Shown here piece by piece: positions 16,443 through 43,344 of a DNA stretch of 64,000 nt. The position numbers were made by a program, and so were the translations under genes. This DNA comes from Flagellimonas amoyensis (GTDB lineage: Bacteria; Bacteroidota; Bacteroidia; Flavobacteriales; Flavobacteriaceae): NCBI RefSeq assembly GCF_003058265.1, contig NZ_QBUK01000008.1:124001-188000 (forward strand). The letters are read 5' to 3'. The notes under the pieces were generated by a model. It searched no databases and was not told the DNA's origin. It saw only the letters and a program-made list of their open reading frames with translations. Numbering within the stretch: position 1 is the first letter of the stretch; the number at the start of each line of letters is the position of its first letter.

Positions 16443-18818
16443 TTACGAAAAGCTCCACCATTTTTTGATGGTCTTTCCATACCCGTAGCCATACTTTCCG
16501 CCATACCCGAGGTTGGATTGTTTCACCCCATTGACCACAAAGGAAAGGTGCTTGAGCTTGCCTTCGTTTTTGAGTTTTAATGGATACTCTATGATCTTTT
16601 TCTCTGTCACATTGGCTTTGGTGACATAGAGCACCTGATCTGCATATTGGCTGATGAGCAAGGTATCTGTGACCACCATCACTGGTGCCGTATCCACGAT
16701 AATGTAGTCATAGAGACCGGACATTTTTTCAAACAACTCCTTCATCCTGTCGCTCATCAACAATTCTGCTGGATTTGGTGGTATCTTTCCAGAATAGATG
16801 ACGTCTATATCGTTGGTGTTTGTTTCAGTACCTACGATGATTTCCTTTTCTGAAAGCGAGTTGTCGAATAGGTATTCCGTCAGTCCTTTACCTACATTTC
16901 TCTTGGGTTTGATTCCTGATCCATCTGCGTTCAAGGTTTCGGAAAAGAATGTATACAGTTTTGGGTTGCGGATATCAGCGCCTATCAACAATACTTTTTT
17001 ACCTGTATTTGCAAAAATTGTTGCCAAGTTGGATGACACGAAAGTTTTCCCTTCGCCAGGAACACTGGAAGTCACAAATACCACTTGCGCCCGATCCATA
17101 GTCTTTGTTTTGGACTTCAATATGTAGTCCAAATTTGTCCTCAGGATTCGCATAGACTCCGCCAATACAGACCGGTCTTCCGTAAGGATGACCTTACTCT
17201 CCTTTTTACCAAGCTTGGGAAGCTCGGCCAATACAGTGACATCACCCGCTATGGACTCCAAATCTATCTTATTGTGAATCTTGTCGTCCAGCACATCGTT
17301 TACATAAATGATAGAAAAGGGAATCAAAAGCCCAAGCATCAGTGCTGCCAGATAAACAATTTTGTTTTTTGGAGTCATGGGAAACGTCGAACTATAGGCA
17401 TAGTTGATTATTTTGGATTTAGGGGTGGCCGATGCAAATGTGATTTGAGATTCTTCACGCTTTTGGAGCAGGTACAGGTACAAGGATTCTGTAGTCTGCT
17501 GTTTTCTGGAAATATCCCTTAAGGCCCTTTCGTTACTTGGTGCTGCATATATCCTCGAATTGATTTGGGATAGTTGCTTGCTCAAACTGTTGACTTGTAA
17601 ATCCAAATTATTGGTCACGTTGTTCAAGCTAGACTGCATACCTCTTCTAAGACCATCCAGTTGTTGATCGAGTTTAACAATTACTGGGTTTTTCTCATTT
17701 GAGCTTTTCAACAATCTATTCCTTTGAGCCACAAGTTCATTATATTGTTGGGCTGCGCTTGCAATTCCAGGGTCGTTCAACCCAACATTGGTCGGGATGT
17801 AATCATAATTGCCTTGATCACTGACCAAATCCTTCATAGAGTTGGCTATATTCAATTGGATACTGGTTTCCTGTAGCTGTTTTTCACCTGCTGCACTTTG
17901 AGAGAAATTCACATTTGATTGAGAGCCCAAGTCAGCAATTCCCCTACTTTCTTTAAAAGATTCAGCGGTTTCATCAACGGATGATAGGTTGGTATAGATT
18001 TCTGATATTCGATCGTTGATGAACTGTGATGTTCTATCTGCTATAGCCTTTTTATCCGCCACGGCATTCTCATTATTGATTTCGACCAAGTTGTTCAATA
18101 TATCGATTGCCCTTTCCTTTTTGGAGTCCATCATCGAAATATCAATGATATTGGAAAATTCCGCAGCTACCTTCATCTTTGTAGATGCCCTTAATTTTTC
18201 CACCAACAATGGTAATGGTTTTACTTCAATTCTAATCGTTTCATTTTTGTACAAGGGCAGGTTCTGATTTTCGGGCACAAGTATGATATCACCTATTTTG
18301 GTCTTTATATTTGAACCAAAGGCATATTTCTCGAAGGCACCTTCTTCTTCTTCTGAATAATTGAACTCAGTAGCAGAAATAATCTTCACATAGAAAGTAT
18401 GCTCAAATTTATTGATGATTGAGTCTGGAGAAAGAAAATTTATGGCAAACGGATATTTGGATCCATAAATCTCGTTGTCCCTTATGTTGCCCGTAACGAA
18501 ATAACCAACATTTAATTTAAGCTTTTTGATGACCTTGATAAAGTTTTCCCTGGCCTTTAGCAATTCTATCTCATCTACGATTTTCGGGGCACCACTTCCT
18601 CCTGAAAAAACATCAAGATCTTTCAATATGGACAACTCGGAAGCAGCTCCTTTATCCTCCAATATTTGAATCTTGGCATAAGCCTCGTACTGAGGTATGG
18701 TGTATCTCAAATATATAAATGCCATCAAACAGGTTATGAAAACGGACAACACAAACCACTTCCATTGTTTTAAATAGGCATTGACAAGGCCTTTCAGGTC
18801 AATTTCTTTTTTGTTCAT
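16443..18818 (-). CDS. Wzc-like polysaccharide co-polymerase / tyrosine autokinase
   Basis: 791 residues, inner membrane. Wzz-type N terminus with first membrane helix about 20-38, a large periplasmic region with coiled coils (about 250-445) ending in the tip motif around APSNERALRDISRKQ, and second membrane helix about 487-506. The cytoplasmic BY-kinase domain has Walker A SVPGEGKT (585-592), Walker A' LIGADIRNP (611-619) and Walker B IIVDTAP (706-712). The C-terminal tail carries four tyrosines (772, 776, 778, 780) as autophosphorylation sites. It works with Wza (next gene upstream) in EPS polymerisation and export. Last gene of a minus-strand operon of aminotransferase, dehydratase, Wza and Wzc. 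Confidence 0.95.
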   Translation of the reverse strand: MNKKEIDLKGLVNAYLKQWKWFVLSVFITCLMAFIYLRYTIPQYEAYAKIQILEDKGAASELSILKDLDVFSGGSGAPKIVDEIELLKARENFIKVIKKLKLNVGYFVTGNIRDNEIYGSKYPFAINFLSPDSIINKFEHTFYVKIISATEFNYSEEEEGAFEKYAFGSNIKTKIGDIILVPENQNLPLYKNETIRIEVKPLPLLVEKLRASTKMKVAAEFSNIIDISMMDSKKERAIDILNNLVEINNENAVADKKAIADRTSQFINDRISEIYTNLSSVDETAESFKESRGIADLGSQSNVNFSQSAAGEKQLQETSIQLNIANSMKDLVSDQGNYDYIPTNVGLNDPGIASAAQQYNELVAQRNRLLKSSNEKNPVIVKLDQQLDGLRRGMQSSLNNVTNNLDLQVNSLSKQLSQINSRIYAAPSNERALRDISRKQQTTESLYLYLLQKREESQITFASATPKSKIINYAYSSTFPMTPKNKIVYLAALMLGLLIPFSIIYVNDVLDDKIHNKIDLESIAGDVTVLAELPKLGKKESKVILTEDRSVLAESMRILRTNLDYILKSKTKTMDRAQVVFVTSSVPGEGKTFVSSNLATIFANTGKKVLLIGADIRNPKLYTFFSETLNADGSGIKPKRNVGKGLTEYLFDNSLSEKEIIVGTETNTNDIDVIYSGKIPPNPAELLMSDRMKELFEKMSGLYDYIIVDTAPVMVVTDTLLISQYADQVLYVTKANVTEKKIIEYPLKLKNEGKLKHLSFVVNGVKQSNLGYGGKYGYGYGKTIKKWWSFS

Positions 18819-18864
18819 ATCCTTTGGGGAATAATAATCTTGGGGTTACCCGTGACTTGATATA

Positions 18865-19644
18865 TTAATTTCTTGTCAACAACACTACAGTTGATGTGAT
18901 CAATACAGAAATGATTGAAACGGCAATAGATGCTCTTTGGTCAAAATTCGATTGCGTCTTACCAGATTTATTAGGCTCCACGTAGACCACGTCATTCTGG
19001 GTCAAATAATATACTGGTGACTTCAAAGATTCCTTTTGGTTTAGGTTGATTCTATTGTACACTTTGGTGCCATCAAAGTCACGAATGACCATAACATTGT
19101 CCCTTCTACCCTTAATTCCTATATCCCCTGCATATCCCAATGCCTCCATAATGGTAATTTGCTCTCCGTTTATAGGGTATGTCCCTGGTCGGTTAACGGC
19201 TCCCAAAATTGTTACCGTAAAATTCCTGATCCTAATGTTGATTATGGGATCCTTGAGATAATCTGCCATTTTTTCCCTTAGCAAATCCTTGGTCTCACTA
19301 GGCGAAAGACCTTCAATTTTAACCTTACCAATGACTGGGAAGTCGATTTCACCATTTTTATCCACTAAATAATTGACCTGCTCAGGACGCATCCCAATGC
19401 CTTCCTCTGCACCTCTGAACAAATTAAATGGCGCACTGGCTTCTGGGTCCAAAGTTGATACATGAATGCTTACCAAGTCGTCAACCTTGAACTTGGTGCT
19501 AAAGGTATTGTCGTCAACCAGAGTCTCAAATTGGTCGGCATCTTGAAAATAAACAACGTCTTTGGTAGATGTGCATGAAGCAACTATGCATGTTGCTCCA
19601 AGGAAACATGCAACTTTTATTTTTTGGAACATTGATGTATACAT
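18865..19644 (-). CDS. Wza-like polysaccharide export lipoprotein
   Basis: 259 residues. Lipoprotein signal (VACFLGATCIVASC). Poly_export domain (about 45-130; FKVDDLVSIHVSTLDPEA and VNYLVDKNGEIDFPVIGKVKIEGLS) followed by a SLBB domain (about 140-215; TILGAVNRPGTYP and YVEPNKSGKTQ at its end). A C-terminal hydrophobic stretch (about 236-256) may be a membrane anchor instead of the amphipathic barrel helix of E. coli Wza. It forms the outer-membrane export channel partner of Wzc, encoded 46 bases downstream. Two in-frame ATGs (19644 and 19632) are possible; 19644 is used because an A-rich stretch precedes it. Confidence 0.93.
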   Translation of the reverse strand: MYTSMFQKIKVACFLGATCIVASCTSTKDVVYFQDADQFETLVDDNTFSTKFKVDDLVSIHVSTLDPEASAPFNLFRGAEEGIGMRPEQVNYLVDKNGEIDFPVIGKVKIEGLSPSETKDLLREKMADYLKDPIINIRIRNFTVTILGAVNRPGTYPINGEQITIMEALGYAGDIGIKGRRDNVMVIRDFDGTKVYNRINLNQKESLKSPVYYLTQNDVVYVEPNKSGKTQSNFDQRASIAVSIISVLITSTVVLLTRN

Positions 19645-19653
19645 TTTTAGTAT

Positions 19654-21594
19654 TTAGTTGAGAAATTCAGCCTTTGACGGCTTTTTCTGGCCAAGGTCTT
19701 GATCCTTTTTGTTGTCCAATTTACAAAAATCGGAATTGTTGGATATGTATTCTGGCACAATACTTTTCATCAATTGCACCACATTGTCCTTGAAGAAAAG
19801 GTTTGAAATACAAAGCTCATCTATCATGTTCTTGGTCCTGGAATAATCTATTTCCCTGACCTTGCTGATCATGATCTTGTCATGGTACGTTGGCAAGGTG
19901 TTCTCCCCATTGGCCAGCAACTCTTCATAGAGTTTCTCACCGGGTCTGAGACCTGTTACCTTGATATCGATATCATCTGGGTAATGTAGCCCTGACAATC
20001 GAATCATGTTCTTGGCCAAATCCATGATCTTGACGGATTCGCCCATGTCAAAGATGAAGATTTCCCCACCCTTGCCCATGGCACCGGCTTCCAATACCAA
20101 CTGGGATGCCTCTGGAATGGTCATAAAATATCGGGTAATATCCTTGTGCGTAACCGTTAAAGGCCCACCCTTCTCAATTTGTTTCCTGAACAATGGTATT
20201 ACAGACCCATTGGATCCCAATACATTCCCAAAACGGGTGGTGATGAACTTGGTTTTCCCTTCTTGCTGTCTACAGCTGATATACATTTCGGCTATCCGCT
20301 TGGTGGCCCCCATAATATTGGTGGGGTTCACTGCTTTGTCCGTGGAGACAAAAACAAATTTCTCCACATTGTATTCCACGGAAAGGTCAACAATGGTCTT
20401 TGTGCCCGCCACATTGATCTTGACCGCCTCGTATGGGTTTTGCTCCATGAGCGGCACATGTTTGTATGCAGCGGCATGGAAAATCCTATCCGGTCTATGC
20501 TCCTCAAACAGTACGCGCATCTTGTTCTTGTCGCGGATGTCCCCAACTATGGGCAAGAAGTTGAAAAAGCCAGCTTGTTTCAATTCCTGTTGAAGATCAT
20601 AAAGTGCAGATTCGGCCTGATCGATCACAATCAATGATCGATAGTTGTATTTACAGATCTGCCTGACCAACTCACTTCCAATAGATCCCGCTCCACCTGT
20701 GACCATGATGACCTTATCATCAAAGTCTTTCATCACCTTACTGTTCTTGATCTCAATGGGGGGCCTGTCCAAAAGATCCTCAATCTGTACTCTTTTGATC
20801 TGCGAGACCTTCAGTTCACCATTGATCCAATCCTCTACGGGAGGAACAATCTTTACTTTAACGGGAAGGTCCACAATCTCGTTGACCAAAGTCCGTAATT
20901 GCTTTGGGCTGATGGTCTGAATGGAAAATATGACCTCGGATATATTATGGAACTTTACAAATTCTTTGGTAAGTATGCTCTTATCATACACTTTCACCCC
21001 ATTGATCTGCTTTCCAACCTTTTGAAGGTTGTTGTCCACAAATCCCATGACCTTCACCCCCATTTGGGAATGGTTGGTCAACGTATTATAGGTGATGATG
21101 CCCGACTCGCCTGCACCATAAATCATGAGGTTCTTGGTAGGCCCTGAGTTATTGTTCATCAAGCTTTCATAACAGATCTTGAACACGTATCGGGATGTAG
21201 CCAAAGTGATGAAAGTCAACAAACTATTGATAATGATGATGGAAAGTGGTATGGTAAACCCATCCACTACTTCCATATACCTATTGGCCAAAACTGCCCC
21301 AATGGCACCTATACTTGCCAAACATACAGCGTTGAATATGGCATAGACATCTTTGATTCCCGTGTGCCGAACCACTCCTTTATAACTTCCAGAAACAAGG
21401 AACGCCAATAAAAAAAGGAACACTACCACGGGAAGCTGGGTCCAGAGACTTCCCACATCAAAATTGAAGCTCAAATTGAACCTTATGAAATAAGCCAAAA
21501 TAAAGGACACTGAAACGATACAAAGGTCTATGAAAAGTACCGTCCATTTGGATGCGTAACGCCTGCCCCTTCTAAAAAAGTATTCTTTGATCAT
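19654..21594 (-). CDS. Membrane-bound nucleoside-diphosphate-sugar 4,6-dehydratase (CapD/PglF/WbpM type)
   Basis: 646 residues. Four N-terminal membrane helices (about 17-138), a first Rossmann-like domain with GAGESGI (160-166) and a second, catalytic SDR domain with TGGAGSIG (299-306) binding NAD. As usual in this subfamily the catalytic tyrosine of SDR enzymes is replaced by methionine (NIMGATKR, Met 428, Lys 432). It should convert UDP-GlcNAc to the 4-keto-6-deoxy sugar, first step to bacillosamine- or QuiNAc-type sugars. The start of this gene overlaps the end of the aminotransferase gene by 4 bases, consistent with PglF followed by PglE acting in sequence. Confidence 0.93.
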   Translation of the reverse strand: MIKEYFFRRGRRYASKWTVLFIDLCIVSVSFILAYFIRFNLSFNFDVGSLWTQLPVVVFLFLLAFLVSGSYKGVVRHTGIKDVYAIFNAVCLASIGAIGAVLANRYMEVVDGFTIPLSIIIINSLLTFITLATSRYVFKICYESLMNNNSGPTKNLMIYGAGESGIITYNTLTNHSQMGVKVMGFVDNNLQKVGKQINGVKVYDKSILTKEFVKFHNISEVIFSIQTISPKQLRTLVNEIVDLPVKVKIVPPVEDWINGELKVSQIKRVQIEDLLDRPPIEIKNSKVMKDFDDKVIMVTGGAGSIGSELVRQICKYNYRSLIVIDQAESALYDLQQELKQAGFFNFLPIVGDIRDKNKMRVLFEEHRPDRIFHAAAYKHVPLMEQNPYEAVKINVAGTKTIVDLSVEYNVEKFVFVSTDKAVNPTNIMGATKRIAEMYISCRQQEGKTKFITTRFGNVLGSNGSVIPLFRKQIEKGGPLTVTHKDITRYFMTIPEASQLVLEAGAMGKGGEIFIFDMGESVKIMDLAKNMIRLSGLHYPDDIDIKVTGLRPGEKLYEELLANGENTLPTYHDKIMISKVREIDYSRTKNMIDELCISNLFFKDNVVQLMKSIVPEYISNNSDFCKLDNKKDQDLGQKKPSKAEFLN

Positions 21595-22724
21595 CTAAGC
21601 TCTTTTTTTATGATGTTGCAAACCCTTTCCAAATCTTCTTCCATCAAACTGGAACCGCTAGGCAAGCACAGGCCTCTTTCAAAAAGTGCCTCACTCACGC
21701 CGTTGACGTAAGATATGGCATCTTCAAAAACAGGCTGTGCATGCATGGGTTTCCACAGAGGCCTTGACTCTATGTTCTCGTTTTCCAAAGCCTTTCGAAT
21801 TCTCTCCCTATCCTCAAAAGAAGGGGTCAAAATGCAGGTGAGCCATCTATTGGAATAGCTGCCCTTGGGTTCCATGGCAAACGTAATGCCCGGAATGCCT
21901 GACAAGTGTTCTATATAATATTCAAAATTGTTTCTCCTTGCATCCACTCGGTTCTGGAGCACTTCCATTTGCCCCCTGCCGATCCCGGCCAGAACATTGC
22001 TCATTCTGTAATTGTGCCCTATGTGCGAATGCTGATAATGTGGCGCATTGTCCCTGGCTTGGGTGGCCAAAAAGACCGCTTTTTCCTTTAGCGCCTTATC
22101 CTTGCACAGCATTGCCCCTCCACCCGAAGTGGTAATGATCTTGTTCCCGTTGAAGGACAAAATACCAATGTCACCCAGACTTCCGCAGTTTAAACCCTTG
22201 TAAGAACTTCCCAATGCTTCTGCACTATCTTCAATGACAGGGATATCATATTGCTGGGCTATGGCATGGACTTCATCCACCTTATAGGGCATTCCATACA
22301 AATGGACCGCCACAATGGCCTTTGGTTTCTTCCCTTTGGCCAATCGATCCTTGATGGCCTGTTCCAACAATATGGGCGAAATGTTCCAAGTTTCTTCCTC
22401 GCTATCGATAAAAATGGGAGAGGCGCCAAGGTATGTAATGGGATTTGCCGAGGCCGCAAAAGTGAAGCTTTGACAAAGTACCTCATCCCCTGCGCTTACA
22501 CCTAGCAACTGCAGCCCCAAATGTATGGCTGCCGTTCCTGAACTCATGCACGCTGCATGGACATCGTTTCCAACAAATTCTTCTATAGATTGTTCAAATC
22601 GCTGCACGTTGGGGCCTAAGGGAGCGATCCAATTGGTATCAAAGGCTTCCTTCACATAGACTTCCTCGTTGTTTCCCATGTGAGGTGGAGATAACCAAAT
22701 TTTTTTCAATACAGTGGTTTCCAT
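21591..22724 (-). CDS. DegT/DnrJ/EryC1/StrS sugar aminotransferase (PglE-like)
   Basis: 377 residues, typical length. PLP-dependent fold: SSGTAAIHL (61-69) for phosphate binding, EDSAEALG (165-172) with the PLP-nitrogen aspartate, and Lys 195 in SFNGNKIITTSGGG as the Schiff-base lysine. It should transaminate the 4-keto product of the neighbouring dehydratase to a 4-amino-4,6-dideoxy-GlcNAc, as PglE does. First gene of the minus-strand operon; a TACTTTTG promoter element lies 42 bases upstream. The downstream gene overlaps by 4 bases. Confidence 0.93.
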   Translation of the reverse strand: METTVLKKIWLSPPHMGNNEEVYVKEAFDTNWIAPLGPNVQRFEQSIEEFVGNDVHAACMSSGTAAIHLGLQLLGVSAGDEVLCQSFTFAASANPITYLGASPIFIDSEEETWNISPILLEQAIKDRLAKGKKPKAIVAVHLYGMPYKVDEVHAIAQQYDIPVIEDSAEALGSSYKGLNCGSLGDIGILSFNGNKIITTSGGGAMLCKDKALKEKAVFLATQARDNAPHYQHSHIGHNYRMSNVLAGIGRGQMEVLQNRVDARRNNFEYYIEHLSGIPGITFAMEPKGSYSNRWLTCILTPSFEDRERIRKALENENIESRPLWKPMHAQPVFEDAISYVNGVSEALFERGLCLPSGSSLMEEDLERVCNIIKKELR

Positions 22725-22765
22725 TTTAGTTTTGGGTTGATATAAGTAGGCGAGATTTTTGTTCT

Positions 22766-22773
22766 CAAAAGTA
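22766..22773 (-). promoter_or_regulatory. Candidate -7 element (TACTTTTG) of the aminotransferase-PglF-wza-wzc operon
   Basis: On the minus strand TACTTTTG matches TAnnTTTG. TTTG at 22799-22796 lies 22 bases upstream, a little longer than ideal. The expected leader to the ATG at 22724 is about 35 bases. Confidence 0.5.
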
Positions 22774-22924
22774 AAAGTAACAGTAAAATTGGCCTCAAAG
22801 GTTATTTTGACCCACTATTCGCCCAAGACAAAAAAAAATCGATTAAGTGTTAAACTAAAGAAAGGAAAATTATCCAAATACCAACATATTCATATGTATT
22901 CCATTCAAAGATATCACCTATATA

Positions 22925-22960
22925 CAAAGAAACAGGGGGCTTAAGCCCCCTGTTTCTTTG
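22925..22960 (-). terminator. Perfect palindromic terminator after the pectate-lyase-like gene
   Basis: A perfect 36-base palindrome with arms CAAAGAAACAGGGGGCTT and its complement. It starts 19 bases after the minus-strand stop of the pectate-lyase-like gene and would isolate it from the downstream aminotransferase operon. The GC core and T-rich arm fit an intrinsic terminator. Confidence 0.8.
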
Positions 22961-22979
22961 TAAGAATATATGGTCATTG

Positions 22980-24551
22980 TTAAACATCGATCAAGTTCAG
23001 GAACTCCTCAAGGTTGGTATAACCATCAGCGTCCATATCCCCTGAACTGTCATCAATATCTGGGTTAAGTCCATTGGCTACTTCCCAAACATCTGGCATC
23101 CCATCCATATCTGTGTCATAAGATTCCGACCTTGAACTTCTTTGAATTGTTGGCGGGTCATATCTACCCATATCAAAACCATAATCACTGCCCGAACCAT
23201 TGCTATTGTTCCCACTCCTTACATCTGCTATATATTGTTCCTGTTTGGCATCATATATAATTCGCGTGGAGCCATTTGAGCTTAAATACTTTCTAGCACC
23301 CGTATTCCCAAGAACATATTCATATGCTTGTCCGTTCTGCATAATATCAGGTCTCAATCCAGCCAAATCAACCGGACTTGCCAGACTCCATGATGAAACT
23401 GGTGGCTGGGATGTTTTGGCCCTATTTGTACCACTCTGGGCTGCATTAAAAATGTCTGTGGGGGTATCTGAAGTACTTTCCACCACTCCGCTCATAAATG
23501 ACCAATAGGTGTCATCCACATACACGTTTGCACCATCATCGTCCCTGACAAGATTGACTCTGTCCGCAATACTAAAATACGTTGCAGGCCCTGCCTTGTA
23601 ATAGTTTCCATAAAAATTGGCTTGGGCCGTACAGCTCACACGTGACAATCTTGCCCTTGAATTGTATACCACGTTATTTATACTCTCCCCTTTCACGCTG
23701 GCCGTAAAATTTGGATGCCGATGACTAATGTGGACAAACAAGTTTTGTATTGCCGAATACTCACCCCCTAGATTCGTATTACATTCATCCCCTCCCATAA
23801 GGACTCCAGTGTCTCCCTCACCTATGAGACAATGTTGCATGGTTGCACCACCGGCAACAAAGTTCTCACTGCTCCAAAAATTCATGGCCTCATTGGCATT
23901 AAAGACAAAATCACAGTTATCGACCACTACATTTTCGGGTGAAACAAATTGAATCAATGGTCTCCTGGCGGATGAAGGGTCGTTAGGGGCTATCACTTTT
24001 GAAGGATCCCCATAAAACTTCATATGCCTGAAAACCGCCTCGTTCAAATTGGAAGCGTACATGCTATATCCCTTGATCATGATACCGTTTGGCGATGTTT
24101 GACCCGCAACGTATACATTCGAGTTTCTATTGCTAAGGACAATTCGACCACTAAGTTCAATTTCACCTGAAACGTCAAAGACTATGATTCTTGGGAAGTC
24201 CCTGGTTATAGCCCAGCGCCATGTGCCTTCACTTACATTTCTGTAGTCATCTTCCAAAGAAGTGACATGTATTACCTGACCGCCTCTAAAGCCATTGGCA
24301 TATGCTCCTGCACCAAATGCAGAAGGAAATGCCTTTAATTCCGTTGCAGCACCGGGGTCTGTAACTGGGTTACCATCAGGCTCTTGATTGTTATCATCAG
24401 GAACTTGTCCTTCTTGGTCCTTTTGATCGTCAATTTCCTTATCTATATTATCTTCTATAGCTTCTGCAAATAAATCTTGATCTTTCCCACAAGAGAGTGT
24501 AAGAAGCAGGGCAAAGAAACATAAGGGCCAGTACAATTTGAGGTTTTTCAT
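22980..24551 (-). CDS. Pectate-lyase-like (PL1-type) surface lipoprotein
   Basis: 523 residues from ATG at 24551. Lipoprotein signal (MKNLKLYWPLCFFALLLTLSC) followed by G-K-D-Q-D, close to the acidic export signal of surface lipoproteins in Bacteroidota, then an acidic linker. The catalytic part has the features of Bacteroidota PL1-type right-handed beta-helix lyases: GFRGGQVIHVTSLEDD, FPRIIVFDVSGEIEL, NVYVAGQTSPNGIMIKG, and repeating N-V-V-V-D-N-C-D strand motifs. The C terminus holds a calcium-binding thrombospondin-3/dockerin-like segment with DTDMDGMPDVWE and DMDADGYTNLEEF. Predicted to cleave a uronate-containing polymer at the cell surface by beta-elimination. It is transcribed alone; its location inside the EPS locus suggests the locus's own polymer as substrate. 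PL subfamily not certain. Confidence 0.85.
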   Translation of the reverse strand: MKNLKLYWPLCFFALLLTLSCGKDQDLFAEAIEDNIDKEIDDQKDQEGQVPDDNNQEPDGNPVTDPGAATELKAFPSAFGAGAYANGFRGGQVIHVTSLEDDYRNVSEGTWRWAITRDFPRIIVFDVSGEIELSGRIVLSNRNSNVYVAGQTSPNGIMIKGYSMYASNLNEAVFRHMKFYGDPSKVIAPNDPSSARRPLIQFVSPENVVVDNCDFVFNANEAMNFWSSENFVAGGATMQHCLIGEGDTGVLMGGDECNTNLGGEYSAIQNLFVHISHRHPNFTASVKGESINNVVYNSRARLSRVSCTAQANFYGNYYKAGPATYFSIADRVNLVRDDDGANVYVDDTYWSFMSGVVESTSDTPTDIFNAAQSGTNRAKTSQPPVSSWSLASPVDLAGLRPDIMQNGQAYEYVLGNTGARKYLSSNGSTRIIYDAKQEQYIADVRSGNNSNGSGSDYGFDMGRYDPPTIQRSSRSESYDTDMDGMPDVWEVANGLNPDIDDSSGDMDADGYTNLEEFLNLIDV

Positions 24552-24572
24552 GTCAAAAATGATTTCGGGATT

Positions 24573-24580
24573 CAAAATTA
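24573..24580 (-). promoter_or_regulatory. Candidate -7 element (TAATTTTG) for the pectate-lyase-like gene
   Basis: TAATTTTG on the minus strand matches TAnnTTTG and ends 21 bases before the ATG at 24551, giving a leader of about 15 bases. It overlaps the alternative upstream start (24575), which therefore should not be used. No clear -33 TTG. Confidence 0.5.
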
Positions 24581-24904
24581 ATGTTTACTTAAAAAAAATA
24601 GATGAAAAACTGATTTATTCGATGAAATGCAATTTTATTTAAAAAACAACTACAGTTTTTATTTTTAAGATTGTTGAACATTTCAGTAAAATCAAGACCA
24701 ATAATTCCACGATGTTACGTAGAACAACGATGAAATGGATCTCTTCATCGATTTTTTTAACAAAAAAAGACCTTATAATCGATGAAATACAGTTTTCATT
24801 AACATCTATTGGCAAAATGAAGACGTGCCTAATCGAAGAAATCGAAATAAATATTTTCCTGTTTATTCCGTTATACAATCCAAGAACATTTGTTCATCTT
24901 TTTC

Positions 24905-24912
24905 TAAATTTG
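24905..24912 (+). promoter_or_regulatory. Candidate -7 element (TAAATTTG) for the epimerase gene
   Basis: TAAATTTG matches TAnnTTTG and ends 17 bases before the epimerase ATG at 24930, giving a short leader of about 10 bases. A TTTG at 24889-24892 is too close to be a normal -33 box. Confidence 0.45.
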
Positions 24913-24929
24913 AAACCTCAACATTCTCT

Positions 24930-25955
24930 ATGAAAATTCTTGTGACAGGCGCAGCAGGCTTTATTGGATACCATGTATCACAAAAACTACTGCAAAACCA
25001 ACATTACGTGGTTGGTTTGGACAATATCAATAGCTACTATGATGTGGATCTAAAATATGCCAGACTGGAACAATTGGGCATAAACAGGGAAAAGGCAGAA
25101 TCCTTTAATGTGCCGGTAAAAAGTGATTCCTCTGAAAAATTTCAATTTGTTCGCATGAATCTGGAAGACCGGGAACAGTTACCCAAACTTTTTGAAATTG
25201 AAAAGTTCGATGTTGTTTGCAACCTAGCTGCACAAGCCGGTGTGCGTTACAGCCTTGAAAACCCGGAAAGTTATGTTGACAGCAATATTGTTGGGTTTTT
25301 AAACATTCTGGAATGCTGTAGAAACAATGGAATAAAACATCTGGTTTACGCCAGTAGTTCCAGTGTTTATGGCTTGAACAAGAAAGTACCATTTGAGACC
25401 TCTGACCATGTGGACCACCCGATCAGCCTGTACGCTGCCTCGAAAAAAAGCAACGAGCTTATGGCCCACACCTACAGTCATTTATTTGGTTTTCAAACAA
25501 CAGGCCTCCGTTTTTTTACCGTTTATGGGCCATGGGGCCGTCCGGATATGGCCATGTTCCTTTTCACCAAGGCTATTTTGGACAATGAACCCATTAAAGT
25601 GTTCAATAATGGGAAGATGGAACGTGACTTTACTTATATAGATGATATTGTGACGGGGGTTGTGCGGATCATACAGAATGATCATACAGAAAGCTATGAC
25701 CCGGACAAAAAATATAAAGTCTATAATATAGGTAACAATGACTCAGTAAGGTTGATGGATTTCATTTCTGCCATTGAAAACAAGCTAAACATTACATCTC
25801 AAAAGAACATGTTGCCGATACAACCGGGTGATGTCGAAAAAACTTGGGCAGATGTCTCCTCACTCATAAACGATTACGGATATGCACCAAATACATCTAT
25901 TGAGGAAGGTGTAGGTAATTTCATTGATTGGTACAAGAGCTTCTATAACATATAA
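24930..25955 (+). CDS. NAD-dependent epimerase, probably UDP-glucuronate 4-epimerase
   Basis: 341 residues from the ATG at 24930; the frame is open upstream but that part lies over the promoter. Extended SDR: GAAGFIG (7-13) for NAD, SSSSVYG near 130, and the catalytic YAASKK (Tyr/Lys) near 158. The insertion SYYDVDLKYARLEQLG after the first beta-alpha unit is characteristic of the UDP-glucuronate 4-epimerase group (CapI/LpsL type) rather than GalE. It would turn UDP-GlcA into UDP-GalA. With the UDP-glucose dehydrogenase gene 266 bases downstream, it forms a uronic acid supply route for the EPS. Confidence 0.9.
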   Translation: MKILVTGAAGFIGYHVSQKLLQNQHYVVGLDNINSYYDVDLKYARLEQLGINREKAESFNVPVKSDSSEKFQFVRMNLEDREQLPKLFEIEKFDVVCNLAAQAGVRYSLENPESYVDSNIVGFLNILECCRNNGIKHLVYASSSSVYGLNKKVPFETSDHVDHPISLYAASKKSNELMAHTYSHLFGFQTTGLRFFTVYGPWGRPDMAMFLFTKAILDNEPIKVFNNGKMERDFTYIDDIVTGVVRIIQNDHTESYDPDKKYKVYNIGNNDSVRLMDFISAIENKLNITSQKNMLPIQPGDVEKTWADVSSLINDYGYAPNTSIEEGVGNFIDWYKSFYNI

Positions 25956-26025
25956 TGTTATAGTTATGGAAATACAATGCCCCTTTATCGAGTATAATGG
26001 AATCTTGTATTGTTTTTGATGAATA

Positions 26026-26184
26026 ATGAAAACCTTTTTGAAACTTTGCACGCCGAAAAAGACAATAAACACGACCATGATACATGTCTTTGACAATCGC
26101 TATGACTCTTTTGCCCCAAATGTCATCCAAACCGTCAGGTCTTTCAGGTTGGTTGTCGTTTATAGACAAGAATTTAATAAGTAA
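26026..26184 (+). CDS. Possible small ORF or gene remnant
   Basis: 52 codons starting ATG at 26026, with a second ATG at 26077, in the 266-base gap between the epimerase and UDP-glucose dehydrogenase. The translation after the second Met (MIHVFDNRYDSFAPNVIQ...) has a balanced composition unlike random AT-rich DNA, but no family was recognised and no promoter was found. It may be chance, a small unannotated protein, or the N-terminal remnant of a lost gene. Confidence 0.2.
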   Translation: MKTFLKLCTPKKTINTTMIHVFDNRYDSFAPNVIQTVRSFRLVVVYRQEFNK

Positions 26185-26221
26185 ACATTTTCAATAAACA
26201 CCAAAATCTAATAAATAGACG

Positions 26222-27565
26222 ATGAGATTAACCGTAATTGGAACAGGCTATGTTGGTTTAGTAAGTGGAACGTGTTTCGCAGAAATGGGAAATACCGTAA
26301 CATGCATAGATGTCGATTCCAAAAAGATTGAAAATTTAAAAAATGGGGTCATCCCAATCTACGAGCCCGGTTTGGAACCCATGGTACATCGAAATATCAA
26401 GAACAAAACCTTGTTTTTCAGTACCGATTTGGGAGAAAGCCTCAAAGCTTGCGACATTGCCTTCATTGCAGTTGGAACGCCCATGGGCGAAGATGGTTCT
26501 GCAGATCTAAAATATGTGCTACAAGTAGCCAAAGAAATTGGACAGAAGATGGTATCCCCACTCATTGTGGTAGATAAATCCACAGTTCCTGTAGGTACCG
26601 CCGAAAAAGTGCATGACACAATTGCCCACGAACTGGAAAAAAGAAAAGTTGATATCGAGTTCCATGTAGTCTCCAATCCAGAATTTTTGAAAGAAGGTGA
26701 TGCCATCAGTGATTTCATGAAGCCCGACAGAGTTGTGGTAGGGGCGGACAGTGATGCAGCGGCATCCAAAATGAGAAACCTTTATTCCCCTTTCTTTAGG
26801 AGCAGTATGGATAGGTTGATAACCATGGATGTGAAATCTGCAGAAATGACCAAATATGTTGCCAATGCCATGTTGGCCACAAAGATTTCGTTCATGAACG
26901 AAATTGCGAACATTTGTGAATTGGTAGGTGCCGATGTGAACAAGGTAAGAATAGGCATTGGATCTGATAGCAGGATTGGATACAGTTTCATCTATCCAGG
27001 AAGTGGATATGGCGGTTCTTGTTTTCCAAAAGATGTTAAGGCACTCAAAAGAACTGCTGAACAAAATGGGTATACGCCCCATCTGATCAAAGCCGTTGAA
27101 GATGTGAACGATGTTCAAAAATTGGTCATCGCAAAAAAAATAATAGCAAGGTTTGGGGAAAATCTATCCAACTACACCTTTGCCGTTTGGGGCCTAGCCT
27201 TTAAGCCAGGCACCGATGACATGAGGGAAGCACCTGCTATCTATATCATCAAAGAGCTGGTCAAACGTGGCGCAAAAATTAGGGCATATGACCCAAAGGC
27301 CATGGGTGAGGCCCAGCACTTCTACCTGAAAGATGTGGAGAACGTATCCTATCTTGATTCCAAATATGAAACAATCTCTGGAGCGGATGCAATGATTCTG
27401 TTGACTGAATGGAAAGAGTTCAGAACCCCGGATTTTGACGAACTGAAAAAGCAACTCAATAAACCTATCATATTTGATGGTCGGAACCAATATGATGAAA
27501 CTTCCCTTTCGCAAATGGGCATAGAGTACCATCAAATCGGAAAAGCAATCGCCCAAGTAAATTAA
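26222..27565 (+). CDS. UDP-glucose 6-dehydrogenase family protein
   Basis: 447 residues, usual length. N-terminal NAD domain MRLTVIGTGYVGLVSGTCFAE with GTGYVG, ECIDVD-like strand end (CIDVDSKKI), conserved YEPGLEP, VGTPMGEDGSADL, and SNPEFLKEGDAI. The catalytic cysteine lies in GYGGSCFPKDV (about residue 260). The C-terminal domain includes LAFKPGTDDMREAP and SGADAMILLTEWKEF. The two-step oxidation of UDP-glucose to UDP-glucuronate is the likely reaction; GDP-mannose dehydrogenase is related but less likely beside a UDP-glucuronate epimerase. A hairpin terminator follows. Confidence 0.94.
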   Translation: MRLTVIGTGYVGLVSGTCFAEMGNTVTCIDVDSKKIENLKNGVIPIYEPGLEPMVHRNIKNKTLFFSTDLGESLKACDIAFIAVGTPMGEDGSADLKYVLQVAKEIGQKMVSPLIVVDKSTVPVGTAEKVHDTIAHELEKRKVDIEFHVVSNPEFLKEGDAISDFMKPDRVVVGADSDAAASKMRNLYSPFFRSSMDRLITMDVKSAEMTKYVANAMLATKISFMNEIANICELVGADVNKVRIGIGSDSRIGYSFIYPGSGYGGSCFPKDVKALKRTAEQNGYTPHLIKAVEDVNDVQKLVIAKKIIARFGENLSNYTFAVWGLAFKPGTDDMREAPAIYIIKELVKRGAKIRAYDPKAMGEAQHFYLKDVENVSYLDSKYETISGADAMILLTEWKEFRTPDFDELKKQLNKPIIFDGRNQYDETSLSQMGIEYHQIGKAIAQVN

Positions 27566-27572
27566 AGCAATG

Positions 27573-27617
27573 GTCCCGCACTACTTCACAACGCTATATC
27601 ATGTTGTAGTGCGGGAC
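27573..27617 (+). terminator. Hairpin terminator after UDP-glucose dehydrogenase
   Basis: GTCCCGCACTAC (27573-27584) and GTAGTGCGGGAC (27606-27617) are perfect 12-base inverted repeats separated by 21 bases and followed by TATTTT. It begins 8 bases after the stop codon. The long loop and short T run make it weaker than the other terminators here. Confidence 0.65.
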
Positions 27618-27745
27618 TATTTTCCAATACCGATTTAGCCCCAATTGTTTTTCCCATTGGTACATAACATATGTATTATAGTATTTCAAGTTCAACAACG
27701 TTTGAAGGAACTGTCTAAAAATTCCTAGTGCCACAAAACAACTGT

Positions 27746-28864
27746 ATGGGAGGTAAACAAAAAATTGCATTTGTAATCGGTTCGCTCACTTCTGGTGGAG
27801 CCGAAAGAGTTGTGACCACACTTTCCCGATCGCTTTCCCATAACTATGATGTGACCATTTTCACCTTTCAAAAGGGAGAAACGGTATACAGGCTGGATGA
27901 CTCGGTAAAAGTAATCTCTTGCATGGATGAAATTCCACCCTCCAAAACGGTTTTGCATTCACTGATCTTGAACTATAAACTATACAGGAGATTGACATCT
28001 ATGTTAAAGTCCCATCAGATAGAACTTGTAATTGGTTTTATTACCATGGCCAATGTACTGACCATTCTTGCGGCAAAAACATTGAAGATCCCATGCATCG
28101 TTAGCGAGCGCAATAATCCATATACAGACGCAACGCCTAGGTTTTGGAAACTTTGCAGACGATTAACCTATCCATATGCAGGATTTCTTGTAGTCCAGAC
28201 AGAGCTTATAAAAGATTTTTATAAAGACCTGATAGACCCTCGGAAAATCGGGGTACTTCCCAATCCCATTTCACAAGACCTTACCAAGAACCGCAAAGAA
28301 AACCAACCAAAAGAGAATGTGGTTTTGAATGTTGGAAAGTTACATGACCAAAAAAACCAGGCATTCCTTATCAGGGCATTTCACACTTTGGACTTCAAGG
28401 ACTGGAAATTGATCATCATTGGAGAAGGTGAAAGACGAAAATCACTGGAAAACCTAATAGTTGAGCTCAAACTTGAGAGCAATGTGTTCCTGTTGGGAAG
28501 AAAGAATAACATACATGACTTTTACAATAGGTCCAAAATTTTTGCTTTTTCATCAAACTATGAAGGCTTCCCAAATGCTTTGATAGAAGCCATGCACTTT
28601 GGACTCCCTTGCATATCCACAGATTGTCCTACCGGACCATCCGAGTTGATCCATGATGGTGACAATGGGTTTCTGACACCGGTCGGTGATATGGAACAGT
28701 TCGGAAACAAATTGCAGGAACTTATGGACAACCCAGAATTGCGGGACAAGTTCTCTAAGAAAGCTATGGACACAACCTCTAAATTTGAGGTCCAGTATGT
28801 AACGGTAAAATGGGAAAAAGTAATTGAAAGTGTCCTTTTGCCGATTGAAAAAACAATTACTTAG
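27746..28864 (+). CDS. Glycosyltransferase family 4 protein
   Basis: 372 residues from ATG at 27746 (MGGKQKIAFVIGSLTSGGAERV); a GTG six codons upstream is possible. GT-B fold: N-terminal SGGAERV, typical of GT4 acceptor domains, and C-terminal donor domain with VLNVGKLHDQKN, LIIIGEGERR and the E-x7-E nucleotide-sugar motif around SSNYEGFPNALIEAMHFGLP. Cytoplasmic, adding one sugar to the lipid-linked repeat unit; donor and linkage unknown. First gene of a plus-strand run of eight genes to 37204 in which spacers are 20 bases or less and several genes overlap by 4 bases, so it probably marks the start of an operon. The next gene starts directly after its stop. Confidence 0.9.
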   Translation: MGGKQKIAFVIGSLTSGGAERVVTTLSRSLSHNYDVTIFTFQKGETVYRLDDSVKVISCMDEIPPSKTVLHSLILNYKLYRRLTSMLKSHQIELVIGFITMANVLTILAAKTLKIPCIVSERNNPYTDATPRFWKLCRRLTYPYAGFLVVQTELIKDFYKDLIDPRKIGVLPNPISQDLTKNRKENQPKENVVLNVGKLHDQKNQAFLIRAFHTLDFKDWKLIIIGEGERRKSLENLIVELKLESNVFLLGRKNNIHDFYNRSKIFAFSSNYEGFPNALIEAMHFGLPCISTDCPTGPSELIHDGDNGFLTPVGDMEQFGNKLQELMDNPELRDKFSKKAMDTTSKFEVQYVTVKWEKVIESVLLPIEKTIT

Positions 28865-30208
28865 ATGGGTATAAAGGCACTTTTTTCAAGATTAAAAGGC
28901 AAATTTAAAATCTCGGTTGTCCGCAATATAGTAATTGTTGGTTCAATAACCCTTTTTGTCAAATTGGCCGGCTTCTACAAAGAAACTTTTGTTGCCTCTA
29001 GTTTTGGTTTGTCGGAACTTCTGGATTCTTTTTATGTGGCCATTTTGATACCTTCCTTTATCCAGGCAGTTTTCATCAGTTCGGTAAAAAACATCTTCAT
29101 ACCCAATTACATTACAGAAATCAAAGTTGGCAAGACCGAGAACATCGGCGGTTTCCAGACCTTGGGCTTTCTTCTGATTTCTGCCATAGTCCTTGTCTTC
29201 ATGGGACTCACATACTTATTTGGTCATTTTTTTTTAGATATTGTTTTTCCTGGCCATACACCCTATTTTTATTCCATCACTAAATCACAGCTCTATATAA
29301 TGACCCCTTGCCTCCTTTTTTGGGGAGGGTCGTCACTTCTTAGCGCTCTTTTGGACATAGACACCAAATTCCTCTCGTCTGCTCTATATCCTATTTTCAC
29401 TGCGATATGTACCATTGTTTTTCTGGTGTTCTTCAAAGAAGCCATCGGCGAAATGGTCTTGGCCATCGGGACCTTGGTTGGAAGTCTCATCGGCTTTGTT
29501 TTTCTGTTGTGGGTGACCTTAAAACATAAACTCATTTTATTTGGCCCTCCCCTGATCAATGACAACACTAGAATGATGATCAAACAGCTTCCGCCAAAAA
29601 TCAGTTCTGGTTTTTTGACCGGCATGAACCAATTCATCGATCAGTTCTTTGCGGCACAATTGGTCGTGGGATCTATTTCCGCCATCAACTATGGGATAAA
29701 GATTCCGTCTTTTATACTTACCTTGTCCATGATAGCCACGGGGACCGTACTTCTTCCTTATTTTTCAAAAAAAATAAATGAGGATAGGCTACAGGCCTTC
29801 AAAGATCTTTTTAGGATTTTAAAAGTTGTTTTTCTTGCAGGACTGGTCGTAACATTGATTATTTTTATTTTTTCATATGATATTATCAAATTCCTATTTG
29901 AAAAGAACGAATTTACCAGTAAGGATACCTATACAGTTTCGTTGATACAGCAAATAATATTGGTGTATGTGCCGTTTTACTTGTGTGGGAATCTCTTGGG
30001 GAAGTTTCTTACCAGTATCAACAAAAACAGCTTCATGGCCTGGGTCTCTTTGTATAATTTGATAGCCAACATTGTTTTTAATATCATCTTCATGAAATTG
30101 TATGGTGTGTACGGGCTCGCAATAAGTACTTCCTTGGTCATCACTATAAGTAGTTTTATATATCTCTATTTTACCTATAAGCAATACAAAATCATAGGAA
30201 CAGAATGA
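28865..30208 (+). CDS. MurJ/MviN-family (MVF) flippase, putative Wzx function
   Basis: 447 residues with about 12 hydrophobic segments and no soluble domain. The N-terminal region VIVGSITLFVKLAGFYKETFVASSFGLSELLDSFYVA fits the MurJ/MviN lipid II flippase group of the MOP superfamily (conserved G-x-x-R/K-E and D-x-F/Y motifs). No other Wzx candidate is present in the locus, so it is the likely flippase for the undecaprenyl-linked repeat unit rather than the housekeeping lipid II flippase. It begins on the base after the upstream stop and overlaps the polymerase gene by 4 bases. Confidence 0.85.
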   Translation: MGIKALFSRLKGKFKISVVRNIVIVGSITLFVKLAGFYKETFVASSFGLSELLDSFYVAILIPSFIQAVFISSVKNIFIPNYITEIKVGKTENIGGFQTLGFLLISAIVLVFMGLTYLFGHFFLDIVFPGHTPYFYSITKSQLYIMTPCLLFWGGSSLLSALLDIDTKFLSSALYPIFTAICTIVFLVFFKEAIGEMVLAIGTLVGSLIGFVFLLWVTLKHKLILFGPPLINDNTRMMIKQLPPKISSGFLTGMNQFIDQFFAAQLVVGSISAINYGIKIPSFILTLSMIATGTVLLPYFSKKINEDRLQAFKDLFRILKVVFLAGLVVTLIIFIFSYDIIKFLFEKNEFTSKDTYTVSLIQQIILVYVPFYLCGNLLGKFLTSINKNSFMAWVSLYNLIANIVFNIIFMKLYGVYGLAISTSLVITISSFIYLYFTYKQYKIIGTE

Positions 30209-31314
30209 TGACCGCATTACGATATATCGTTCTCTATTTATTTGTAATGAATGTCTCCAGTGGAGCCTTAGTGTATCTAGGGGGGGCAATAGGTTCAATC
30301 ACAAGCTATCTGTCGTTCATCCTGTTGCTGGTCTATTACTTTTTTGTCAATAAAGGGAAAGCAAATTTGTGGATGATAGTTCTGGGGATTCTTTATTTTT
30401 CCATTTCTGGCTTACAGTATTATGAGGACACCGGGTACTTTTTAAATGTTACCATAAAGTATTTCATCATTATTCTTGGTGGTTATGAAGTCGTTAAAAG
30501 AACTTCCAATCGTGAATTCTTGGTGGTCCTATTATTGGGCGCAACGACGATATTCTTGCATGCTGCATTTTTGGGAGGAGGCTCTGCTGACTATGGTAGG
30601 TTCAGTGGCTTCTATATCAATCCCAATGCCGCTGGCTTTATCTGCATATCAGGTTATGCACTGGCCTATTCCATAGAGAACAAAAGGTTTCGCCTACTGG
30701 CCCAGATAATCTTTACGATCATGGGGCTGCTGACCCTGTCAAGAACTTTTATTGCACTTTGGATTTTGCTCAATTTGATTTCTTTAAAAATAAACATCAA
30801 GAACATCAGGATTTTTTTATACGGGTTCGGCCTTCTGTCCCTGCTATTGGTATTCAGTGAGTTCTTGCCTGTCGAGAATCCAAGAATAGAACAGCTCAAA
30901 GCACTTACGAGCAGCAATGAGGAAGTAACGGTCAGTGAGTTGAACGAAGATTCGCGAACGGATACATGGAGCAAATATTTCAACGACATTGGTGAGAAGC
31001 CTTTCTTTGGGAGTGGGTTCACCTCTTTCACTTCAAAATCCTTTCTTAGCGAGAAAGTAGGTATACACAATACTTTTTTACTGGTATTGGGGGAGGCTGG
31101 GTTCATCCCGTTCATTGTGATTGTCATCTTCTATGCAAGAATGCTGGTTTTGAGTTTACGCCTTTTCAACCATGCGCCAAACTTATTGATGCAATCCATC
31201 GGACTGTTTTTTTTCCTCATGGCATCCCATGTTTTTTTCACCCATGCCTTTATTTTGTTCATCTCCATGTGGATACAAAATCAAATAGAACAAAAAAAAC
31301 ACCTTTTGCAATGA
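30205..31314 (+). CDS. O-antigen/EPS polymerase (Wzy-like) membrane protein
   Basis: 369 residues, about ten membrane segments and one larger extracytoplasmic loop near residues 225-275 ([18 protein letters not shown]...). Wzy proteins are poorly conserved; the call rests on the topology, the Wzy_C-like segment ending in [24 protein letters not shown], where G-x-G-F/H and H-N-x-x-L are typical of ligase/polymerase proteins, and the position between flippase and glycosyltransferases. It overlaps the flippase gene by 4 bases (ATGA) and its own stop overlaps the next gene in the same way. Confidence 0.85.
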
Positions 31315-31856
31315 AAAAGTTATTCCAGAAACTAATGGCATATTACCATCGCCACTCTAAGAACAATGAGGACTATGCAAGGCATCTTGGAGTGGAAATC
31401 GGAAAGAACTGTAGAATTTATATCCGAGATTTCGGCTCCGAACCATGGCTGGTCAAAATTGGGGACAAAGTGACCGTGACACATGGGGTCAGGTTCATCA
31501 ATCATGATGGTTCCACTTGGTTGATCAGTGATCAAAAAGGGAGACGCCAACTCTTCAGAAGAATCAGCATTGGAAACAATGTCTTCATTGGGATGAACAG
31601 TATCATACTCCCTGGAGTGAAAATAGGGGACAACGTCATTATAGCAGCAGGAAGTGTAGTCACAAAATCAGTGCCATCAGGCCATATCATCGGGGGAAAT
31701 CCCGCAAAGATCATCATGGACTTTGAATCCTATAGAACAAGGGCATTGGAAACCTATGTAAGCAATCAAGAAATGGATTTTTCTAAAAGCTACAAAGAAC
31801 GTGTCCTAGAAATTCTTGACGAATCCTTTAAGCCTGATTTAAAGCCAAAACCTTAA
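31311..31856 (+). CDS. Acyltransferase of the left-handed beta-helix family
   Basis: 181 residues from ATG at 31311, overlapping the polymerase stop by 4 bases. Hexapeptide repeats are visible: [60 protein letters not shown] and the closing GNPAKII. HDG may include the catalytic histidine of O-acetyltransferases of the WbbJ/LacA group. Likely acetylates a sugar of the repeat unit using acetyl-CoA; other acyl donors cannot be excluded given the ACP gene later in the locus. Confidence 0.88.
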
Positions 31857-31862
31857 ATTTGA

Positions 31863-32954: not shown

Positions 32955-32974
32955 CCCAGGTACTTCTTGATATA

Positions 32975-34129: not shown

Positions 34130-34145
34130 AAACACCAACATACCT

Positions 34146-36053: not shown

Positions 36054-36067
36054 ACAAAAACAAAATA

Positions 36068-43270: not shown

Positions 43271-43344
43271 AGAGCAAGATATACTGGGCATTTATTTTTC
43301 TGTTATGGTTTGGAATCTCATCTTTTAAACAAACGATTCGAAAA

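Follow-up and report, generated by a model that had tools for sequence, protein, structure and literature searches.

AlgL is a lyase whose gene lies beside the alginate synthesis genes, and the gene of VexL, a protein of Achromobacter denitrificans, is sited in a capsule locus. VexL (6fi2, PL1_13) is a PL1-fold depolymerase of a Vi-antigen producer, and it cuts the Vi antigen (excerpt of PMC9597891). WceF of Pantoea stewartii is a phage-tailspike-like beta-helix protein encoded in an exopolysaccharide (EPS) cluster. It cuts its own EPS, and its knockouts make longer EPS chains (excerpt of PMC7949094). RbmB of Vibrio cholerae is a lyase whose substrate is the biofilm polysaccharide of that same species (excerpt of PMC11637428). 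PfPL1 (9buj) was the first member of PL1 subfamily 2 to have its structure solved, and the excerpted text of PMC11229556 proposes a metal-free mechanism in which Arg220 abstracts the C5 proton. In the present analysis, a lipoprotein gene was studied in a stretch of 64,000 nucleotides of Flagellimonas amoyensis (contig NZ_QBUK01000008.1, positions 124,001 to 188,000), hereafter the window. The gene, at 22980..24551 on the minus strand (-), lies in an EPS locus and encodes a PL1-type (PL1_2-like) protein of 523 aa, predicted by ORF, homology and model to be a lyase of the cell's own EPS at the cell surface.

We consider it probable that the gene product is an outer-surface lipoprotein whose PL1_2-like beta-helix cuts the EPS of its own locus at the cell surface. 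An Arg-driven beta-elimination at a uronate residue would cut the acidic polysaccharide made by the same locus, and the coat of the cell would thereby be trimmed, loosened or released. The most likely substrate, judged from sequence, is the host's own polymer. The gene would be the locus's copy of an exchangeable part, i.e., a conserved N-terminal tag joined to a C-terminal domain that varies between loci and would often be active on polysaccharides. Phages of the same hosts would use PL1-type copies, most simply, as depolymerases to pass the coat, and genes would be passed between host and phage pools. The chances are about even for a wider claim, i.e., that every EPS locus of the genus has a matching polymer-acting lipoprotein on one tag, with the domain traded with phage tails or cargo in a common pool of polymer-typed cutters. 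Residence in the locus, the lipoprotein signal with its tag, the fold, the conservation of the catalytic Arg, the alternative domains and the prophage copies with their host match were read at the sequence level, and from them we infer the surface exposure, catalysis, substrate and biological role of the window lipoprotein.

Lipoprotein gene and predicted fold

The open reading frame (ORF) as listed begins upstream at TTG (24575), and the 523 aa are counted from ATG. The product has a lipobox LTLSC (Cys21), an acidic-rich linker, a right-handed beta-helix part and a C-terminal D-x-D-x-DG segment. The beta-helix part (residues 73-325, 23577..24335 (-)) was recognized by phmmer, the predicted model and structural matches. 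The C-terminal segment, D-x-D-x-DG-x-x-D-x-W-E (residues 479-490, 23082..23117 (-)), was aligned with the pseudo-EF-hand region of PfPL1 (excerpt of PMC11229556). The N-terminal tag C-G-K-D-Q-D-L-F starts from the lipid-bearing Cys21 (24468..24491 (-)). In the tag-pattern scan of the window's own genome (G000), this gene was the single match.

In the Pfam scan, no family was found for the protein at E<=0.01. By phmmer, residues 73-325 matched PDB 9buj, 'Pectate lyase' (E 1.3e-22), and a profile from 36 sequences matched 9buj at E 2.2e-116 and VexL at E 1.4e-21. PHROG 27797, 'pectate lyase', was matched at E 2.7e-17. The NCBIfam PelZ model gave 51.5 bits against a cut-off of 840; by sequence, the protein is related to PelZ but is not PelZ. 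The original prediction placed a pectate-lyase-like lipoprotein in the EPS locus, divergent from an epimerase and a UDP-glucose 6-dehydrogenase (UGD), and the ORFs, the lipoprotein signal and the 9buj match agree with it. Between the window protein and its orthologue in genome G048 (75% identity), the nonsynonymous divergence (dN) was 0.19 and the synonymous divergence (dS) was not computable. The latter is read as saturation, hence as a sign of the window protein being kept.

The predicted model had a predicted local distance difference test (pLDDT) score of 78 and a predicted template modeling (pTM) score of 0.78. Its top structural match was PfPL1 (Foldseek E 1.7e-16; Z 37.8 across 379 residues; 24% identity over the structural alignment), followed by Jun a 1 (Z 31.2) and VexL (Z 29.6). 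PL1 lyases matched at Z of about 25-38, and RbmB, a more distant fold match, at Z 18.5. Going by the model, PfPL1 of PL1 subfamily 2 is the closest solved structure to the window protein. Arg278 (codon 23718..23720 (-)) was aligned with the catalytic Arg220 of PfPL1, and it was invariant in both alignments, i.e., 30/30 in A1 and 36/36 in A3.

PL1-type copies in Flagellimonas genomes

By profile search of 71 Flagellimonas genomes (E<=1e-20), PL1-type matches were found in 34. The 48 rows correspond to 46 copies, since two rows (G029 392017 and G037 1364719) were set aside as N-terminal pieces of already counted genes. Within 40 kb of a Wza or epimerase gene, 33 of the 46 copies were located, in 32/71 genomes. 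The remaining 13 comprised two on short contigs (G030, G044), three in polysaccharide utilization locus (PUL) settings (G000, G051, G058) and eight in prophages or prophage-like elements. The short-contig copy of G044 adjoins genes resembling a flippase and a polymerase by eye. Identity to the window protein was about 27-38% for the EPS copies of the genus, except for the 75% orthologue in G048. Because EPS residence is kept at such identity, the place in the locus outlasts the sequence.

The enzymes were also compared with the variable genes of their loci, in 435 locus pairs from 30 loci. The 16 pairs with enzymes at least 50% identical shared 72-79% of variable genes on average, and the 364 pairs with enzymes below 35% identity shared 11-12%. 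The correlation between enzyme similarity and variable-gene sharing was modest (Mantel rho 0.20, p 0.0015, 30 loci).

The original prediction tied the lyase to galacturonate synthesis in particular. This tie did not hold; the association is with the locus, and the epimerase was found in 68/71 genomes with or without a PL1-type enzyme. Epimerase presence was therefore rejected as a predictor of the lyase. For the broader claim of a surface lyase acting on its own EPS, locus residence across the genus, tagged stand-ins and prophage-carrier matching speak in favor, and the epimerase that does not track the PL1 domain speaks against. Heparinase II/III (PF07940) was tried as a stand-in and rejected. 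It was found in 26/71 genomes, and by eye 0/38 listed places were near the epimerase on its contig.

Prophage copies and their carriers

The eight prophage copies were distributed in six of the 71 genomes. None matched the tag pattern (0/8), and the L205 copy begins with a lipobox-like SCGQE. L053 and L061 adjoin baseplate hub and portal genes, L063 adjoins virion proteins and an endolysin, and L203 adjoins a portal and a head protease. In L206, a phage-family protein of unknown function and a reverse transcriptase were found, and in L207, a weak tail-fiber match. L204, L205 and L207, from three species, have a common block of homologous genes with homologous chromosomal flanks, and a holin-family protein was found in L204. 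Three tested proteins of L204 and L205 had no PHROG hit; among the six proteins tested for this block, the holin-family and weak tail-fiber matches were the only ones to known families. Within the block, a neighboring gene is 82% identical between L204 and L205 and the lyases are 29% identical, which suggests that the lyase was swapped while the element stayed. Such replacement is in line with host-phage trade of the working domain.

When EPS-locus enzymes were ranked by identity to each phage copy, the carrier's own enzyme was rank 1 for G053 (50%), G039/L061 (78%), G043/L203 (39%) and G042 (85%). It was rank 2 for G070 (67% vs 69%) and G043/L204 (36% vs 38%), and ranks 9 and 32 for the other two copies. 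The ranks used for permutation were taken over the EPS-locus enzymes of 33 genomes, G030 included despite its short contig, and earlier ranks over the 36-37 enzymes with a hit. Random re-pairing reached the rank sum with p of about 0.0005 for all eight copies and 0.0036 for six, i.e., without L204 and L205. For the four firmest prophages alone (ranks 1, 1, 1 and 9), p was 0.0004. Re-pairing among the six carriers alone reached the rank sum in 2/720 orders.

In the tree, which has long branches (L190 above all), the phage copies were scattered, with 7 changes for 8 rows. The phage copies of G053, G039 and G042 were sister to the EPS enzyme of their own host, with support of 100/100, 100/100 and 100/98, respectively. 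The rows labeled PUL, i.e., 16 rows from A3 with SusC/SusD adjoining many such loci but not all, formed their own clade apart, except Zobellia L093, which is sited in an EPS-like locus. The simplest explanation for a phage enzyme that resembles the host EPS enzyme is that the two act on one polymer, the host EPS.

Viral collections also contained relatives of the window protein. The phage collection gave 8 records, all unannotated, with 27-41% identity, and nine viral contigs carry relatives.

As a separate observation, the reverse transcriptase of L206, the element of G070, was placed at 16435-17523 (-) and belongs to the PHROG 1423 family (E 8.5e-123). Near it, at 17505-18229, are direct repeats that are imperfect (225 nt at 80%; three copies of 80 nt). 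Together they resemble a diversity-generating retroelement, and the PL1-type gene of the phage is some 6 kb away.

Tagged lipoproteins with alternative domains

In the genomes lacking a PL1-type enzyme, the stretch beyond the epimerase usually has another lipoprotein, with the N-terminus SC-x-K-D-x-D-L-F or looser variants. The tag was searched as a DNA pattern for C-x-[KQ]-D-x-D-x-F, and the reversed pattern was used as control. In the 71 genomes, 68 matches were obtained. Of these, 47 lay no more than 50 kb from the locus core, each in a different genome, and the reversed pattern gave 8 matches genome-wide. The other 21 matches were away from the core, and three of them belong to such lipoproteins on short contigs (G030, G044 and G002). 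The core was located in 70 genomes, and 23 of these have no strict tag match near it. Looser tags, i.e., SCSQDEDLI, SCSDEEIF and SCSAEDVF, were missed by the pattern in several counted loci.

By hand count, an EPS-locus lipoprotein of the tagged series was present in 65/71 genomes. The PL1 type was found in 32 genomes, a 680-aa family in 14, the PF13229 type in 10 (including G066 and G067) and the PF14099 type in G028 and G033, with G024 as one more. Other or unassigned domains were found in G003, G011, G015, G025, G026 and G055. Outside the 65 are G030, G044 and G002, with such a lipoprotein on short contigs, and G006, G014 and G038, with fragmented assemblies in which none was located.

Among the matches listed in the PF13229 search, a copy distant from the locus is present in most genomes, and in genomes without a PL1-type enzyme at least 10 places were about 22 kb or less from the epimerase. 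Two PF14099 polysaccharide lyases were above the Pfam cut-off and a third (L191) was below it. The 680-aa family had no meaningful Pfam hit. One of its members matched PHROG tail protein 21199 (E 2.4e-25) and, weakly, Cellulophaga phage tail proteins (11 records, 24-25% identity). A PF13229-type member matched PHROG tail spike 2234 (E 1.9e-25) and Bacillus phages (132 records, several annotated as tail spike), and by profile the type matched tail fiber gp22 in PDB (7qoj, E 3.6e-22). A PF14099-type member had no PHROG match. In profile comparison, the N-terminal parts of the 680-aa and PF13229-type families were aligned, tag included (95% probability). The 680-aa family profile gave one weak PDB match, a peptidyl-prolyl isomerase over the N-terminal part (E 0.0045). 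By phmmer, one member from each of three alternative families had no match in PDB. In the clustering of alternative lipoproteins, any match of more than 100 columns was enough to join clusters, and some members of cluster 0 may be linked through an accessory domain that they have in common. L171 and L193 represent one gene, as do L158 and L180.

Tandem arrangements were also seen. One EPS locus of G004 has two tandem PL1-type tagged lipoproteins (L042 8148-11622). In L179 (2427-3500, PF01522 tested) and L187 (1-1089, by similarity), the second tandem tagged lipoprotein is a polysaccharide deacetylase.

Relatives beyond the genus

Outside the genus, the tag pattern gave 49 matches in 247 genomes. 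Seven of them were within 60 kb of a Wza match, in a comparison restricted to the 37 genomes whose Wza matches were strongest. Among these seven stretches, five have a tagged lipoprotein (L196, L197, L198, L199 and L201), two of them PL1-type; L200 consists of ordinary chromosomal genes, and L202 is without such a start. From these scans, the tag appears sparse beyond the genus, and most outside matches are probably due to chance. No recognized EPS neighbors were found beside the PL1 relative of L067, a Deltaproteobacteria metagenome-assembled genome (MAG).

Long PL1-type proteins (899-2363 aa) were found near EPS-like genes in Subsaxibacter (L069), Winogradskyella (L125) and a Bacteroidia MAG (L068). 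They have no tag in the first 70 residues and are perhaps secreted rather than lipid-anchored.

Alternative explanations

Several observations weigh against the cutting of own EPS. In Capnocytophaga, the optimum of the lipoprotein export signal (LES) is C-X-K-(D/E)2-X after the lipid-bearing Cys (excerpt of PMC5080379). The window signal C-G-K-D-Q-D agrees at K +3 and D +4 and has Q at +5 and D at +6, so that the LES is only partial, close but not equal to the optimum. At positions 212 and 220, the H and D of the family are both replaced by Asn in the window copy; these are conserved positions in the family and not a published definition of the subfamily. Asn281 replaces the second Arg of the PfPL1 R-x-P-R. 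The orthologue L033 has His at 212 and Asn at 220. The equivalent of a further conserved Asp varies by alignment: in A3 it is D191, reached across an insertion, and in another alignment it is Arg/Pro. The excerpt of PMC11229556 names the second Arg of PfPL1 as Arg235, a position that is Glu by count in the indexed chain; the second Arg of the R-x-P-R nearby corresponds to Asn281. Given these residues, catalysis or metal-assisted binding in the window copy may be altered or lost, and the copy may have metal-free binding, another preferred substrate or weak activity.

Further points of this kind come from the genus. Recognized polysaccharide-active domains do not extend to all alternative EPS-locus lipoproteins, with no meaningful Pfam hit in 9 of the 21 tested. 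Enzyme similarity was only weakly related to variable-gene sharing when epimerase identity was given (partial Mantel r 0.15, p 0.047, 27 loci). Two of the eight phage copies mismatch their carrier, at rank 9 (G027, 33%) and rank 32 (G039/L207, 23%). The two G043 copies match at only 36-39%, nearly tied with G059, and are related rather than independent. In the search of the window's own genome, no phage copy turned up.

The main rival to own-EPS cutting is a polymer-holding role, which we regard as rather unlikely. The protein would be an anchor whose lectin-like domain holds the cell's own EPS on the outer membrane and varies with the polymer, and cutting would be weak or absent. The near-LES lipoprotein start, the Asn residues at 212, 220 and 281 and the nine lipoproteins without a recognized domain are consistent with such an anchor. 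WceF also combines lectin-like agglutination with slow cleavage (excerpt of PMC7949094). However, Arg278 is invariant in all aligned relatives, and both a deacetylase and a family of polysaccharide lyases are found among the alternative domains. The domain is also carried by phages, which fits cutting better than binding alone.

A phage-related role is improbable. Here, a resident depolymerase-like lipoprotein would strip or mask the phage receptor polymer, or a captured phage gene would serve superinfection control. The repeated phage-host pairs speak for this role, and so does the similarity of other EPS-locus lipoproteins to tail and tail-spike proteins. However, a lipoprotein of the series is present in nearly all genomes of the genus and phage PL1 copies in 6/71, the place in the locus is stable, and the phage copies are without a tag-pattern match.

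A uronan C5-epimerase or another modifier on the beta-helix, as AlgG/AlgE of alginate loci, is very improbable. Uronan epimerases resemble lyases in both fold and chemistry. The structural matches of the model included AlgE4/E6 (Z about 16), an alginate epimerase/lyase (Z 17.9) and AlgG (E 0.02), but the PL1 lyases, at Z of about 25-38, are far better ones.

An ordinary pectin-scavenging enzyme lying beside EPS genes by happenstance is hardly credible: the PL1_2 members characterized so far are pectin lyases (excerpt of PMC11229556) and the window genome has a separate pectin-type PUL (G000:C4) with SusC, SusD and pectinesterase, but that PUL has its own 765-aa PL1-type paralogue, EPS-locus residence was found in 32/71 genomes, and the PUL-labeled rows other than L093 form a separate clade.

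Genes of the EPS locus

The window EPS locus is of the Wzx/Wzy type, with Wza, Wzc and similar labels taken from Pfam matches. The core (15699..22724, both strands; Pfam and NCBIfam) comprises CpsB/CapC-like (15699-16442 (+)), Wzc-like (16443-18818 (-)), Wza-like export protein (18865-19644 (-)), PglF/CapD-like (19654-21594 (-)) and DegT aminotransferase (21591-22724 (-)) genes. A perfect 40-nt palindrome, terminator-like both ways, lies at 22923..22962 between the lipoprotein gene and DegT-PglF-Wza-Wzc. It was found by the palindrome scan and also returned by the terminator scan, in agreement with the perfect terminator claimed for the lipoprotein gene. The DegT, PglF/CapD, Wza and Wzc genes beyond it share the direction of the lipoprotein gene. 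The claim that the lipoprotein gene has its own promoter was not supported. Sigma-70-like sites over 22000-28000 were at chance level (16 vs a mean of 16.0 in shuffles), and one TANNTTTG box was found at 24580 (-).

The divergent gene at 24930..25955 (+) encodes a nucleotide-sugar epimerase, probably a UDP-glucuronate 4-epimerase according to Pfam, NCBIfam and PDB matches. The ORF as listed is 24825-25955 (+), and the likely ATG is at 24930. The best PDB match was 5u4q (depositor label dTDP-glucose 4,6-dehydratase), then 6zl6, 6zla and others, 'Epimerase domain-containing protein'. The TDE motif is typical of dehydratases, and an epimerase is favored because SSSSVYG stands in place of this motif. 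As its substrate, we infer UDP-GlcA. UGD was found at 26222..27565 (+) by Pfam and NCBIfam (PDB 2y0e, E 1.1e-157). The polymer-specific part (27728..37204 (+), Pfam) includes four group-1 glycosyltransferases, a MurJ/MatE-type flippase (28865-30208 (+)), a Wzy-like protein (30205-31314 (+)), a hexapeptide transferase (31269-31856 (+)) and an Asn-synthase-like protein (34146-36053 (+)).

The original prediction noted the lack of a SusC/SusD pair, and the proteins scanned agree with it. A Pfam scan of 20 window proteins returned no SusD, and the TonB receptor at 39201 gave 54.5 bits, far under the SusC cut-off of 368.

Near the EPS locus, the gene at 41882-43291 (-) encodes a protein that has a tyrosinase domain and a tail for type IX secretion. 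Its homologue was found near the EPS-locus lyase in L044, L045 and L050.

Comparison with known systems

Self-depolymerases of EPS and capsule makers are already known, and the exchangeable tagged series with host-phage matching seems to be new. In the open-access literature searched by title and abstract start, neither a tagged exchangeable series in Flavobacteriia nor such host-phage pairs were found. Four of the eight phage copies were 50-85% identical to the host enzyme of the same genome. If own-EPS cutting by a tagged series is true, the EPS loci of marine Flavobacteriia could reveal which enzyme cuts which polymer. This would give a ready source of polymer-specific lyases and a prediction of which phage depolymerase fits which host. 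The origin of phage depolymerases and their tracking of host surface change would become testable pairs.

AlgL is similar in that its gene adjoins the genes making its substrate. It differs in serving a single polymer, and it is a periplasmic PL5 enzyme of another fold. RbmB is not, to our knowledge, part of a lipoprotein tag series. VexL shares the PL1 fold, but it is periplasmic, serves an ABC-transporter-dependent capsule by its PDB title and belongs to another PL1 subfamily. WceF differs as a hydrolase with a trimeric tailspike fold, a Tat signal and one polymer, and we know of no lipoprotein tag series for it.

PfPL1 is the nearest solved protein in both sequence and fold. Together with the other members of PL1 subfamily 2 (PelZ and BT_4115/4116/4119), it has the same beta-helix, C-terminal pseudo-EF-hand region and aligned catalytic Arg as the window protein. 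Unlike PfPL1 with its R-x-P-R, the window protein has Asn in place of the second Arg, and H212 and D220 are replaced. PL1 subfamily 2 enzymes serve pectin use (excerpt of PMC11229556), whereas the window protein is a lipoprotein with the tag, encoded in a locus for EPS synthesis.

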